The position numbers and the translations under genes were made by a program. The notes beneath the pieces are model-generated. The model did not search any database and was not told the origin of the DNA. It saw only the letters and a program-made list of their open reading frames with translations. Positions 3,882 through 54,286 of a stretch of DNA of 64,000 nt are shown here, in pieces (within the stretch, counting starts at the first letter, position 1; each line of letters starts with the position of its first letter). The DNA is from Motilibacter aurantiacus (GTDB lineage: Bacteria; Actinomycetota; Actinomycetes; Motilibacterales; Motilibacteraceae), in NCBI RefSeq assembly GCF_011250645.1, contig NZ_JAANNO010000006.1, forward strand, positions 1 through 64,000, in the 5' to 3' direction.

Positions 3882-3978
3882 TGCGCCCCCTCCAGGACCG
3901 GGGTCTGCTCGCTGGTCAACGGTCTCTCCTTCTGCGGTGCATGGGGCGGAAGTCTTGCGCACGCGGTCGGCTGCGCGG

Positions 3979-21723: not shown

Positions 21724-22556
21724 GCGTGGATGCCGGTGACGAGGATCCCCCGCGCCCCCAGCTCCCACAGCTCGTCCATGACCCGGTTGGTGTCGCTCTT
21801 GGGCACCATCGCGCGGACGGCCACCCAGCCGCGGTCGTGCAGCGGGGAGACCGTCGGCGACTCGATGCCCGGCGTGATCGCCACCGCCTCCTCCACCAGC
21901 TCCGCGCGCACGTCGTAGTCCATCAGCACGTAGCGGCGCGCGATGATGACGCCCTGCAGGCGGCGGACGAGCTGGTCCACGGCGGCCGAGCCGGAGGCCC
22001 CCGCGCCGCGGACGAGGACGGCCTCGCTGTGCAGGATCGGGTCGCCCAGGATCTCCAGGCCGGCCTGGCGCAGCGTGGTCCCGGTCGACACGACGTCCGC
22101 GATCACGTCGGCGACGCCCAGCCGGACGCTCGTCTCGACGGCGCCGTCGAGCCGGATGACCTCGGCCGAGACGCCGAGCTCGGCCAGGTGCTTGGACACC
22201 AGGCCGGCATAGGACGTCGCGACGCGCTTGCCCTCGAACTCCTTGGGCGAGGAAGCGGTGCCCGGTCGGGCTGCGTACCGGAACGTCGAGCCGCCGAAGC
22301 CGAGCTGGAGCAGCTCCTCGGCGGGCGCACCGGAGTCCAGCAGCAGGTCACGGCCGGTGATGCCGAGGTCCAGCTGGCCGGAGCCGACGTAGACCGCGAT
22401 GTCACGCGGGCGCAGGAAGAAGAACTCGACGTCGTTGGCCGGGTCCTGCAGAACCAGCTCCCGCGGGTCGGTGCGCTGCGCGTACCCCGCTTCCTTCAGC
22501 ATCTCCGCCGCAGCGGTGGACAACGAGCCCTTGTTCGGTACGGCGACCCTCAGCAC
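21711..22556 (-). CDS. hisG: ATP phosphoribosyltransferase (long form)
   Basis: First enzyme of histidine synthesis (281 aa, the long HisG form with a C-terminal ACT-like regulatory domain, about 210-281). [10 protein letters not shown] opens the protein. The PRPP-binding segment is [22 protein letters not shown] 22556 is preferred, with GGAAGG nine bases upstream and the family-typical [10 protein letters not shown] start; an ATG three codons earlier abuts that sequence. hisE, normally adjacent, is 2.5 kb away. Confidence 0.94.
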
Positions 22557-22595
22557 GTGCCCCATCCTTCCAGACGGCGCAGAGTCCTTCGGACC

Positions 22596-22602
22596 TGTAA
22601 CC
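22596..22602 (+). promoter_or_regulatory. Possible ECF-type -35 upstream of the sigma gene
   Basis: TGTAACC stands 31 bp before the ATG of the ECF sigma gene. AAC-containing -35 elements are typical of ECF sigma factors, and autoregulation is common. No convincing -10 can be paired with it by eye. Confidence 0.25.
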
Positions 22603-22632
22603 GGAGGAGGGGGCTTCGGCATCAGTAGGGGC

Positions 22633-23163
22633 ATGGACGGACGGGGCGGCGGGTTCGACGAGTACGCGACGGCGCGCGGGCCGGCGCTGCTGCGGTTCGC
22701 GTACGCCCTCACCGGGCACCGCGAGCAGGCGGAGGACCTGCTGCAGACCGCGCTCGCCGACGCGTACGTGCACTGGCGCAAGGTGCTGCGCGCCGACGAC
22801 CCGGACGCCTACGTGCGCCGCATGATGCTCAACCGGTTCCTCGGCTGGCGCCGGCGCCGGTGGTCCGGCGAGCTCGCCAGCGAGCACGTCGACCCCGGCG
22901 CCTCGCCGGACCCGGCCGGCGACGTGGTGGAGCGGGACGCCGTCCGCCGGGCGCTCGCCACCCTGCCGCCGCGCCAGCGCGCGGTCGTCGTGCTGCGCTA
23001 TCTCGAGGACCTCGACGACGCCGCGATCGCGGCCACGCTCGGCGTCTCCCCCGGCAGCGTCCGCGTCACGGCCCACCGCGCACTGGCGGCGCTGCGCCGC
23101 CGGCTGCCGCCCGACCTCGTACTCGACGCCTCGGCCCCGGCCGGGAAGGGATCTGCGCCATGA
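22633..23163 (+). CDS. ECF RNA polymerase sigma factor (SigE-like family)
   Basis: Sigma-70 family factor (176 aa). Region 2 covers about 8-75 ([28 protein letters not shown] split by normal spacing) and region 4 about 105-160 ([17 protein letters not shown], then [20 protein letters not shown]). The tail is short. It resembles the SigE-type ECF group abundant in actinomycetes. The stop overlaps the ATG of the next gene (ATGA), a typical sigma/anti-sigma arrangement. It is divergent from hisG. Confidence 0.9.
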
Positions 23164-24014
23164 CCGATCTGGAGGAGCTCGTCCGGGACTCGCTGTCCCG
23201 GGGCGAGCGGATGACGCTGCCGGGCGCGCTGGTCGCGGAGGCGGCCCGCAGCGGGCGGCGGCGCGCCCGGGCACGCCGCGTGGTGCCGGCCGTCGGGGCG
23301 GCGCTCTCGGTCACCGCCGTCGCCGCCGTGCCCGTCGCCGTCGACCACGGCTCCCGCCGCTCGGCGCCGGCCGCTGCCGTGTCCGCCGAGCCACGCACGC
23401 AGTTCACCCCGCGGTGCGAGGGGCTCGCCGTGGCCGGCACCTCCAGCCCGCCGGCCACCGACGCCGCGCTCACGGCGGGCGAGCTCGGGCGCGGCTGGCG
23501 GGCCGAGCGGGACGGCGCGTGGTACATCGACGCCCGGGGGACGGTCATGGACCGGCTGACCGGGCAGCCGGCAGTGGCCTGGCTGCCTCAGGACGCCCGG
23601 CGGGAGATCGGCTGGGGCCTCTGGCGCGCGCCGGTGCGGGGTGCGACGGGCCGGCTGCCGCTGCTGACCACGAGCGTGCTGGAGACGGAGCCGGGGCGCG
23701 GGGCCGCCCTGCTGCGCGAGCAGGGCAGCCTGGACGCCTGCGACCGGCGGACGGTCGTGCTGCGGGCCTGGGCCTCACGGACGGGCGGCGAGTACGCCAG
23801 GCGCTCCACCTACCCGACCCTCGACGCCACCGAGTGGTCCCTGGCCGTCCGCAAGGGCGACCTCGTCGTGCGGGTGAGCCTCAAGGCCCGCAGCTACATC
23901 GCGGTGGACAGCCCGCTGAGCTGGCTCGGCGCGGTGGCGGACGCCGCGCTGGCCAAGGCGCAGGGCGAGCAGCCGAGCGGTGTCCCGCCGCTGCCGGCAG
24001 GCCCTCGCAGGTGA
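23160..24014 (+). CDS. Putative membrane-bound partner of the ECF sigma factor
   Basis: Protein of 284 aa. The N-terminus ([15 protein letters not shown]) is cytoplasmic, then a basic stretch (RRRARARR) and one transmembrane helix at about 41-58. The remaining ~220 residues are predicted outside and contain a C-D-R-R segment and an extracytoplasmic beta/alpha region with several Trp residues. Overlap with the sigma gene and this topology suggest an anti-sigma or signal receptor. No zinc-type anti-sigma HxxxCxxC motif is seen, so the role is inferred from context. Confidence 0.6.
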   Translation: MTDLEELVRDSLSRGERMTLPGALVAEAARSGRRRARARRVVPAVGAALSVTAVAAVPVAVDHGSRRSAPAAAVSAEPRTQFTPRCEGLAVAGTSSPPATDAALTAGELGRGWRAERDGAWYIDARGTVMDRLTGQPAVAWLPQDARREIGWGLWRAPVRGATGRLPLLTTSVLETEPGRGAALLREQGSLDACDRRTVVLRAWASRTGGEYARRSTYPTLDATEWSLAVRKGDLVVRVSLKARSYIAVDSPLSWLGAVADAALAKAQGEQPSGVPPLPAGPRR

Positions 24015-24016
24015 CG

Positions 24017-24127
24017 TCAGAGCGCCCACATCAGCACGAGCAGGGCGGCGGCGACAGCGGTGACCCACAGGACGCCGGTCACCTGGCCGTCGGCAGACAG
24101 CGGCTCGTGGTGCGTCTTGTTCGCCAT
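24017..24127 (-). CDS. 36-residue single-helix membrane protein
   Basis: ATG 24127 follows a strong GAGGAGG. The product has a polar N-terminus (MANKTHHEPLSADGQ) and a hydrophobic helix from about residue 18 to the end. Stop is 3 bp from the convergent sigma-partner gene stop. The good ribosome site and clean hydrophobic helix argue for a real small gene. No family is recognised. Confidence 0.55.
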   Translation of the reverse strand: MANKTHHEPLSADGQVTGVLWVTAVAAALLVLMWAL

Positions 24128-24298
24128 GGCGGCAGCCTCCTCGCCCACCGGCTCCGGCGGGTGCTCCTGACCCTTCCCTGACACGGTGCCGAGGAACCGT
24201 GAGGCCGGGCTGACACCGGGGTCAGGGCGGCGTACGAGGACCGTCAGGATCCGGCCCGGCCCCTGTCCGGCGGCGGGCGGAGCGCGTGAGCCGGTGCC

Positions 24299-25013
24299 AT
24301 GACGTTGAGCGACTGCCTCCCCTCCCTCCGCGCCTTCATCCCGACCCGCTCGAGGAGTCGTTGTGGCCGTCCGGCACCCGGGCGCGCGGGGACGACCGGC
24401 TGGTCGAGGGCTTCTCGCTGGCCGGGCCGCAGGGCAGGCCGGGGCTCCCGTCCAGGCCGTCTTCGGCTTCGACGTCCGGATGCGGGCGCGCGCCTGGGCC
24501 GGCCGGGACGTCACCCTGTGGCTCGGGGGGCCTGCCGCTGCGCCATGGGCGCGTGCGATGTTGGCTGCGGGCCGAGGGGGCCAGCTGGGTGCGCCCCACC
24601 GCCCCGACCGCGGGCCGGCCCCTGCGGTGACGCTCGGCGCGCTGCGGCGCAGGCCGGGCGCGTGGTGCCGATCACGGTGACGGCCCCGTGGGGCTGCCCG
24701 TCCCGCGGGGCCGGTGACCGTGCTGCCCGTGCAGGAGGTGCTTCCCGCCGCCGACGGCCGGCCCGTCGCCGTCGTGCCGCCCGTGCGGGCGGGCCTGCTC
24801 TCGGCGTACGAGGCCCGCTGCGACGGCACCCACGTTGCGCGGCTGGTCGGCCGGGCCTCGGTCGCCCGCCGGTCGCCGCACGCCGTGGTGGACGACCTCG
24901 GCTGGGTGTCCCGCTCGGCGCTGCTTCCCGCGGGCCTGGCGCCGGGGGACCTGCTCGCCGTCGCGCGCACCGGGTGCTGCGGGCACGGCGGTCAGGTGCT
25001 GGCCGTCGGCTGA
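24299..25013 (+). pseudogene. Frame-broken gene of unknown family
   Basis: A coherent protein can be followed only by changing frame about seven times: MTLSDCLPSLRAFI, PDPLEESLWPSGTRARGDD, VQAVFGFDVRMRARAWAG, LPLRHGRVRCWLRAEG, VTLGALR, AQAGRVVPITVTAPWG, LPVPRG, then an uninterrupted 100-codon C-terminal part from about 24714. Each break falls at or beside a short G or C run. Six are one-base losses; one, near 24528, is a one-base gain in a run of six G. Repaired length is near 235 aa. The intact 3' part begins VTVLPVQEVLPAADG. I do not recognise the family. It is either a decaying gene or a stretch with base-call errors. Confidence 0.5.
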
Positions 25014-25027
25014 GCGGGGCCGGGGGC

Positions 25028-25291
25028 TCAGAGGTGCTTGTAGACGTCCTCGAGGCTCAGCCCGAGCGCCAGCATGAGGACCTGCGAGTGGTAGAGCAGC
25101 TGGCTGATCTCCTCGGCCGCCCGCTCCTTGTCCTCGTGCTCGGCCGCCATCCAGGACTCGGCGGCCTCCTCCAGCACCTTCTTGCCGATGAAGTGGACAC
25201 CCCTGTCCAGCTCGGCGACGGTCCCCGACCCCTCCGGGCGGGTGGCCGCCTTCTCCGACAGCTCGGCGAAGAGCGCCTCGAACGACTTCAC
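25028..25291 (-). CDS. hisE: Phosphoribosyl-ATP pyrophosphatase
   Basis: Second step of histidine synthesis (87 aa), hydrolysing phosphoribosyl-ATP to the AMP form. The MazG-like all-alpha fold shows [15 protein letters not shown] and [15 protein letters not shown] with the metal-binding acidic residues. GTG 25291 overlaps the ribH stop (GTGA), so it is translated with the riboflavin operon. hisG, its usual downstream neighbour, is displaced by an inserted block. Confidence 0.94.
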
Positions 25292-25770
25292 GCCCACCCC
25301 TTCAGCACGTCCCGCAGCACGACCGCCGTGCTGACCGCGGCGCTCGCCGCCTCGTAGCCCTTGTCCTCCTGCGACCCCGGAAGCCCGCTTCTGGCGTAGG
25401 CCTGCTCCTCGGTGTCGCACGTGAGCACCCCGAAGCCCACCGGCACGCCGGTCTCGACCGACACCTGGGTCAGCCCCGAGGTCGCCGCGGAGCAGACGTA
25501 CTCGAAGTGCGGCGTGCCCCCGCGGATCACGACGCCGAGCGCCACGACCGCGTCGGAGCCGGTGCGCGCCAGCCGGGCTGCCGCGACGGGCAGCTCGAAG
25601 GTGCCGGGCACGCGGACGACGACCGGGTCCTCCACCTTGCACTGCGCGAGCGCGGTGAGCGCGCCGTCGAGCAGGCCGCCCATGATCTGCTCGTGCCAGC
25701 GGGCGGCGATCACCGCGACGCGCAGCCCGTGCCCGTCCGCCTGCACCGTGGGGGCGCCGGCTCCACTCAC
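25288..25770 (-). CDS. ribH: 6,7-dimethyl-8-ribityllumazine synthase
   Basis: Penultimate riboflavin enzyme (160 aa), assembling into capsids or pentamers. Family marks: [43 protein letters not shown] (catalytic His in the last) and [14 protein letters not shown] 25770 overlaps the ribBA stop. Confidence 0.96.
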
Positions 25771-52996: not shown

Positions 52997-53425
52997 CTAG
53001 GAGTCCTGCGGCTCGACCTGTGACAGCTGCGGACGCAGCCCGAGCACGGTGCCGAGCAGCCCGTTGACGAACCCCGGGGACTCGTCGGTCGACAGCTCGC
53101 TGACGAGGGCAACGGCCTCCGCGACGGCCACCGGGCCCGGGATGTCGTCGCGGTGGAGCAGCTCGTAGACCGCGATGCGCAGCACGTTGCGGTCGACCGC
53201 CGGCATGCGGTCGAGCTCCCAGCCCTGCGCGTGCCGGGCCAGGACGGCGTCGATGGCCTCCCGGTGGGCCGCGACGCCCTCGACGAGCTCCACGGCGTAC
53301 GCCGAGACCGGCGGCTCGCCGCGCGAGACGTGCTCGGCGAGCGAGGTCAGCGGGTCACGGCCGCGCTGCTCGGCCTCGAAGAGGACGTCGAGGGCGCGCT
53401 TGCGCGCCTTGTGGCGGGCCGACAC
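52997..53425 (-). CDS. nusB: Transcription antitermination factor NusB
   Basis: All-alpha RNA-binding factor (142 aa) for rRNA antitermination. SARHKARKRALDVLFEAEQRG begins it in two blocks; VDRNVLRIAVYELLHRDDIP and EAVALVSELSTDESPGFVNGLL end it, matching the family. GTG 53425 lies 1 bp after the efp stop. Convergent with bldD. Confidence 0.96.
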   Translation of the reverse strand: MSARHKARKRALDVLFEAEQRGRDPLTSLAEHVSRGEPPVSAYAVELVEGVAAHREAIDAVLARHAQGWELDRMPAVDRNVLRIAVYELLHRDDIPGPVAVAEAVALVSELSTDESPGFVNGLLGTVLGLRPQLSQVEPQDS

Positions 53426-53426
53426 G

Positions 53427-53990
53427 TCAGCTCGACACGCGGCCCAGGTAGGACCCGTCGCGGGTGTCGACCTTGACCTTCTCGCCGCTGGTGATGAAGA
53501 GCGGCACCTGGACCTCGGCGCCGGTCTCGAGGCGCGCCGGCTTGGTGCCACCGGTCGAGCGGTCGCCCTGCAGGCCGGGCTCCGTGTACTCGATGACGAG
53601 CTCGACCGAGGCCGGCAGCTCGATGTAGAGCGGCGTGCCCTCGTGGATCGCGACCATCGCCATCTGGTTCTCGAGCATGTAGTCGGCGTTCTTGCCGACG
53701 GTCGCCGCGGGGACGTTCAGCTGGTCGTACGAGTCCGTGTCCATGAACACGTAGTCGTTGCCGTCCTTGTAGAGGTACTGCATGTCGCGCTTGTCAACGG
53801 TGGCCGTCTCGACCTTGACGCCCGCGTTGAAGGTGCGGTCGACGACCTTGCCGGACAGGACGTTCTTGAGCTTGCTGCGCACGAAGGCGCCGCCCTTGCC
53901 GGGCTTGACGTGCTGGAACTCGATGACGGTCCACAGCTGGCCGTCGATGTTCAGCACCAGGCCGTTCTTCAGGTCGTTGCTCGTCGCCAC
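53427..53990 (-). CDS. efp: Elongation factor P
   Basis: Ribosome factor (187 aa) relieving stalls at polyproline. Three beta domains; the tip loop KPGKGGAF places Lys32 where modification occurs in other bacteria; no EpmA-type enzyme is in the window. [18 protein letters not shown] is the family signature. GTG 53990 with GAGGC upstream. A TAGGCT box (54100-54105, minus) may be the promoter. Confidence 0.96.
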
Positions 53991-54286
53991 GGGTACGCCT
54001 CGCCTCGTTCGGATGTCCGTCGTTGTGCTCTGCCCGGTGGCCGCAACAAGCACAGGCGTCAGGAGCCGCGTCGCGAGCCGTCCGAAGGCACGGCTTCCCA
54101 GCCTACCGGGGGCGGGCAGGCCCGGGCTCGGGCACCCTGAGGCGCGCGCGGCGGCACCGGCGGCCCCCGCGTCACCCGTCCGGCCGGTCCAGCGCCTCGC
54201 GATCATCCGTCCGGGCCATCGGAGACGTCGCGTTCGCGCCGACTGTCGGGCAGAGGGGGCGAACGGCCCCCGCGAGGGGAGCCCGT

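Follow-up and report, generated by a model that had tools for sequence, protein, structure and literature searches.

A frame-broken remnant beside hisE in Motilibacter aurantiacus, probably a pseudogene of the LysA family

The DNA that we analyzed, hereafter the window, consists of positions 1-64000 (64,000 nucleotides) of a contig from the assembly of Motilibacter aurantiacus, which comprises 4.59 Mb in 62 contigs. Within it, an intact gene for a SigE-family ECF sigma factor (22633-23163, + strand) matches NCBIfam TIGR02983 at 173.1 bits, against a cut-off of 141.55. It overlaps at an ATGA with the intact gene of a 284-aa orphan protein (23160-24014, + strand), for which no Pfam or NCBIfam family was found, which was matched weakly by 1 of 59 other genomes and which, going only by its position, is perhaps the partner of the sigma factor. 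Weak tblastn matches to the orphan were also seen near the locus in two relatives, in searches without composition correction. Next comes a small membrane-type ORF of 36 aa (24017-24127, - strand), which separates the sigma-factor pair from the remnant that is our subject (24286-25013, + strand); its counterpart in Motilibacter deserti, 67% identical over 36 aa, is likewise intergenic between hisG and hisE. On its other side, the remnant is bordered by a convergent and intact hisE (25028-25291, - strand), 95% identical over 87 aa to the same-genus copy, while the hisG of the window is 93% identical to that of M. deserti E257 (NZ_JAANNP010000003.1). Rfam returned no match up to E = 1 over 22500-25500.

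A sequence-only reading of 24299-25013 had pieced together a single protein of about 235 residues by changing frame seven times. We scored this region against background, in nats, with a codon-position model whose training set was ~33.8 kb of window genes, using 300 dinucleotide shuffles as controls. A coding signal is indeed present on the + strand of 24299-25013, and it can be followed only by changing frame, but the number of changes did not hold up. In one frame, 24703-25010 scored +20.6 nats, which no shuffle matched (0/300), and 24299-24702, allowed two free changes, scored +7.8 nats vs -14.6 ± 5.7 in shuffles (again 0/300). Antisense strands of real genes, also allowed two changes, gave 3.7 ± 8.7 nats (72 pieces), so that the value for 24299-24702 is unexceptional by this yardstick. 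The HMM called 24169-24702 (switch rate 1e-3) or 23973-24702 (switch rate 1e-4) non-coding, indicating that the signal over that part is weaker than in the surrounding genes.

Successive frame changes over 24299-25010 gained 40.2, 6.8, 19.2, 6.8, 3.9, 5.9, and 3.9 nats. The first, at ~24434, is firm, with none of the 300 whole-stretch shuffles gaining as much as its 40.2 nats. Moving from one change to three (~24644 and ~24713) gained 26.0 nats vs 19.1 ± 4.8 in shuffles, 26/300 of which gained as much, and we regard these two breaks as moderate. The step from three changes to seven is without support (20.6 nats vs 23.4 ± 3.6; 234/300 shuffles as much). Thus, although the best seven-change path, with codon starts modulo 3 of 2,1,0,1,0,2,1,0, has the same order of frames as the sequence-only reading, its breaks comprise one that is firm, two with moderate support, and four without any. 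We therefore describe the remnant as four segments, all on the + strand. Segment 1 (24286-24434, codon starts 1 modulo 3) opens with a GTG at 24286, in a different frame from the ATG at 24299 of the earlier reading, and ends at the firm break. Segment 2 (24434-24644, 0 modulo 3), delimited by the codon model, is followed by segment 3 (24644-24713, 2 modulo 3), which is flanked by the two moderate breaks. Segment 4 (24713-25013, 0 modulo 3) is a 99-codon open part running from a GTG at 24714 to a TGA at 25011-25013.

The nearness of the breaks to G/C runs and the absence of stops between them had both been stressed in the sequence-only reading, and neither carries weight as evidence here. The stretch has a GC content of 79.3%, and 22% of its bases lie in runs of 3 or more, vs 14% window-wide. 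From the three best-supported breaks to the closest run of at least 4, the distances are 7, 22, and 3 nt. Of all positions, 55% have a run of 3 or more no farther than 3 nt away, and 17% have a run of 4 or more at such a distance. At this GC content stop codons are rare, and 46% of 500 shuffles had a frame that ran for at least 235 codons without a stop. The three + frames hold 6 stops, vs 5.1 ± 1.9 expected from shuffles.

Searches for relatives of the encoded protein pointed to a single family, LysA (diaminopimelate decarboxylase; NCBIfam TIGR01048), a fold type III PLP enzyme. With the 99-aa open part as query, 5 of 39 other relatives gave a weak LysA match (E = 2e-5 to 5e-4), and with the pieced protein, 9 of 392 other class genomes gave a match; on reading, the frames matched by either query were LysA. 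In a search of 395 other genomes of the phylum, a set that overlaps with that of the class, two were matched, one through a LysA (761 bits with a LysA profile of our own) and the other through a frame (L072) that is not LysA. Among 641 frames scored with the same profile, the open part came top at 16.6 bits (E = 1e-4), followed by the pieced protein at 16.2 bits, while the third-ranked frame reached 3.0 bits.

We wrote a frameshift-aware aligner to compare the remnant with LysA; an early version with low penalties overfitted, introducing 13-18 breaks, and was dropped. In the numbering of the trimmed LysA sequences, 24361-24527 aligned to residues 3-59 and 24576-24974 to residues 244-391 of another LysA, so that ~58 N-terminal and ~150 C-terminal residues align in order. 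Segments 1 and 2 together hold the N-terminal match (to ~24527), and the C-terminal match begins within segment 2, from ~24576. Segment 3 corresponds to the part of LysA ahead of the EPGR motif and around it, and an excursion like it is present in the alignments to two LysA sequences (L040 and L042) and absent from that to a third (L034). Segment 4 corresponds to the C-terminal domain of LysA without its last part. The clearest LysA-like part of the remnant is LLPAGLAPGDLLAVARTG.

The strength of this similarity was judged against DNA pieces of equal length cut from real sense genes of the window. When the N part (24299-24570) was aligned to the first 95 residues of 26 LysA, the mean score was 43.5, vs 27.8 ± 1.8 for the sense-gene pieces, none of which scored as high (0/79). 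For the C part the mean was 78.9 vs 36.0 ± 2.7 (0/79), and the outcome had been the same in an earlier run that used 9 of those LysA and 86 pieces. We chose this control since a decoy test with all coding-like frames had given a blurred result: 4, 3, and 2 of 69 decoy frames reached the LysA mean at penalties of 12, 16, and 22, the two highest being noise-like frames by eye, and for the N part at penalty 12, the LysA mean was attained by 18 of 305 decoy 90-mers and the best LysA score by 3 of them. The highest score at penalty 16 was 69 among 150 shuffles of LysA and 90 for reversed LysA, vs 109 for the best real LysA. Similarity in collinear order at both ends is what a LysA-derived pseudogene should display; it was found against the sense-gene pieces and was less clear-cut against these weaker decoy controls.

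The remnant departs from LysA in more than its broken frame. Between the two matching ends, ~185 LysA residues have no counterpart, a gap that sits in segment 2. Of the 51 aligned columns of the C part that are invariant in 26 LysA, 20 are kept; of motifs with catalytic roles, EPGR keeps 1/4 residues, DGGMSDN 1/7, and KHCESGD 2 of its six invariant ones. The LysA tail, with 13 more invariant residues, is unaligned in the remnant. In the N part, 7 of the 10 or 11 invariant columns are kept, whichever of four references is used. Provided that the remnant does derive from LysA, the lost residues mean that substitution decay has gone on beside the indels, contradicting the earlier impression of a protein without such decay, and that the product would hardly be a working LysA even if restored to one frame. 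In line with this, the remnant does not reach the LysA family cut-off (it scores 16-17 bits with our own profile), the conserved residues of the C half are largely gone, and the barrel core is incomplete. Neither the pieces nor the pieced protein had an NCBIfam family match up to E = 10, and apart from a sub-threshold Pfam match of one piece (CobS_N, E = 0.14), neither Pfam nor NCBIfam gave a curated family for them.

With similarity in order at both ends and a reading frame interrupted by one firm and two moderate changes, we conclude that the remnant is probably a pseudogene of the LysA family, an extra and shortened copy that died in the ordinary way. Under this explanation, the Motilibacter lineage at hand would have gained an extra lysA-like gene, once working, in the space between hisE and the conserved small ORF, and the gene, with selection relaxed, would then have lost ~185 central codons. 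At least one frame-breaking indel, and probably three or more, would have accumulated together with many substitutions, leaving a remnant that is presumably unexpressed and now inert. The suggestion that the gene was lost very recently by slippage thus stands as to the loss; the 20/51 invariant columns and the ~185 missing core residues speak against recency and against slippage as the sole cause.

An extra copy is one that the host could spare, because one intact, full-length lysA (455 bits, without internal stops) is kept elsewhere in the genome; the family search found no second LysA there. The copy may have originated by transfer or by an old duplication. The resident lysA and the LysA of its own family are among the lower frameshift-aware scores (61-71, vs up to 109 across the 26 LysA), so that nothing here supports the resident gene having been duplicated recently. 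Since four of the five own-family LysA are also lower in family score, their low scores against the remnant are no proof of transfer. M. deserti encodes a second LysA-like enzyme (G001:C232:672383-673426, 157 bits), as does a family relative, G002 (G002:C11:10781-11827, 180 bits), and like the remnant, both match the LysA family model below its cut-off. Neither qualified as the parent: the frameshift-aware score of the M. deserti gene equaled that of its reversed control (55 vs 55, penalty 16), and for the G002 gene (158 vs 133 reversed) the match lay in a noise-like stretch upstream of the enzyme.

We also weighed whether errors of sequencing or assembly, limited to this stretch, have put breaks into what is an intact, short LysA-like gene, as the 79% GC of the stretch and its run density above that of the window might lead one to suspect. 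For comparison we used the orthologous 62 kb of M. deserti, with 81/83 coding-like frames matching the window, and took 48 non-overlapping best blocks, some of them antisense or leader frames, which amount to 46.2 kb with 437 G/C runs of at least 4 and 98 of at least 5; 39/48 cover at least 90% of the query. Because each block is a single BLAST stretch, it lies in one frame by construction, and frameshift-aware alignment was the fairer test. By that test, 43/48 blocks (42.1 kb) needed no frame change, which makes a general sequencing fault unlikely. The other five had changes at window positions 3886, 3890/3944, 16089/16118, 27667, and 54133/54266; judged by position against the gene lists, 3886, 16089/16118, and 54133/54266 fall at gene 5′ ends or leaders and 3890/3944 and 27667 in antisense frames. 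Apart from these five blocks, frame breaks in other genes, as an artefact would be expected to leave, were not found in the blocks compared within the 64-kb window, and seven window genes at 78-82% GC, with 12-26 runs of 4 or more, stay open. Moreover, indel errors do not remove invariant residues, and no short intact relative appeared among the matches in the 392 class and 395 phylum genomes. We consider it unlikely, then, that the bases are wrong here while those of the neighbors are right.

In the same comparison, a single long frame at 53187-54250 (+ strand), upstream of the gene at 54.3-56.6 kb, was 76% identical to M. deserti over 336 aa; by eye, it is leader or antisense sequence.

Alternatively, only the last 99 codons (24714-25013) might survive as a still-translated, stand-alone protein made of the LysA C-terminal domain, with the rest being debris. 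Its open frame and coding score (+20.6 nats over 308 bases vs 40 ± 18 over 404 bases for sense genes) would fit such a protein, as would a single-sequence AlphaFold model consisting mostly of strands, albeit at low confidence (mean pLDDT 52), which was too poor for the model to be included in a fold search. At such a GC content, however, frames this long are often open, the conserved LysA residues have been lost, and no homologue of equal length was present among the matches in the class and phylum genomes. A scan of genome contigs gave 594 pattern matches to the open part, none of which was confirmed, and tblastn against a plasmid collection gave none. On these grounds we find it improbable that a small protein has outlived the enzyme here, in an accessory block with the SigE-family sigma factor and the orphan. 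When the open part was compared with solved structures, one entry, a phage capsid, was returned at E = 3.5 and was taken as chance.

It is very improbable that the stretch was never a gene, being instead GC-rich spacer DNA with frames that look protein-like by chance. The frequency of stop-free frames here, the scores of antisense gene strands, within whose range the first half falls, and the non-coding HMM call would all suit spacer DNA, but no dinucleotide shuffle reached the score of either half (0/300), and both ends match the ends of LysA in order, at scores that none of the 79 sense-gene pieces attained.

That programmed frameshifting or some other recoding keeps the protein readable can practically be dismissed, since nothing beyond the frame changes themselves speaks for it, no homologue with the same changes, let alone with a change conserved at a slippery site, was found in the searches of relatives, class, and phylum or at the loci examined around hisE (6 relatives) and hisG (80 loci), 7 nt separate the firm break from the closest run of at least 4, the conserved residues and core are gone, and the 2013 GeneTack survey counted many more pseudogene clusters (4010) than recoding clusters (146) in its 19,430 clusters of frame-changed genes (PMC3711429). 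The idea that something unusual keeps the gene readable accordingly drew no support from our analyses.

Taken as a LysA-family pseudogene, the remnant resembles the bacterial pseudogenes of the survey in showing reading-frame breaks in what is left of a gene, and differs in that those are clustered (PMC3711429). As no intact orthologue was found at its place, it cannot be put into such a cluster. Its significance goes little past annotation. At 79% GC, a lack of stops or G/C runs close by tell almost nothing about how recently a frame was lost, and comparison of conserved residues with a distant family exposes decay that is hidden when a stretch is read by sense.

The surroundings of hisE were compared with those in other genomes, given that an intact homologue after hisE in relatives had been proposed as a check and its absence named as the outcome that would count against the pieced-together protein. 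No such homologue was found in the hisE regions of 6 relatives (0/6) or at 80 hisG loci (0/80), a set that includes M. deserti, also one of the 6, so that where we looked the outcome went against it. The 99-codon open part had no match in the hisE regions of the relatives, and alignments of the pieced protein to their hisE-hisG regions, scoring up to 80, were noise-like and were taken as composition. At the 80 hisG loci, neither the open part nor the orphan sigma partner had a match (0/80). The spacing between hisE and hisG is 59-284 bases in M. deserti (G001) and in relatives G002, G006, and G016, whereas in G003 977 bases holding other frames separate the two genes; in G004, other genes lie near hisE, and no hisG was found in the 11 kb fetched. 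Across the hisG loci, the gap is 0-284 bases in the 79 of 80 that have both genes in view.

The extra DNA of the window thus consists of the SigE-family sigma factor, the orphan, and the remnant, and the first two are absent from the hisG-hisE spacer of M. deserti. As this DNA flanks the 36-aa ORF on both sides, two insertion points or a rearrangement would have been needed to bring it in. The hisG-hisE spacer is hereby documented as an accessory insertion point in one Motilibacter genome. The 36-aa ORF, of single-pass membrane type, has a weak likeness to PF07835 (aa3-type cytochrome oxidase subunit IV; 16.1 bits, cut-off 22), and its tblastn match at 1 of the 80 hisG loci was to the Motilibacter one.
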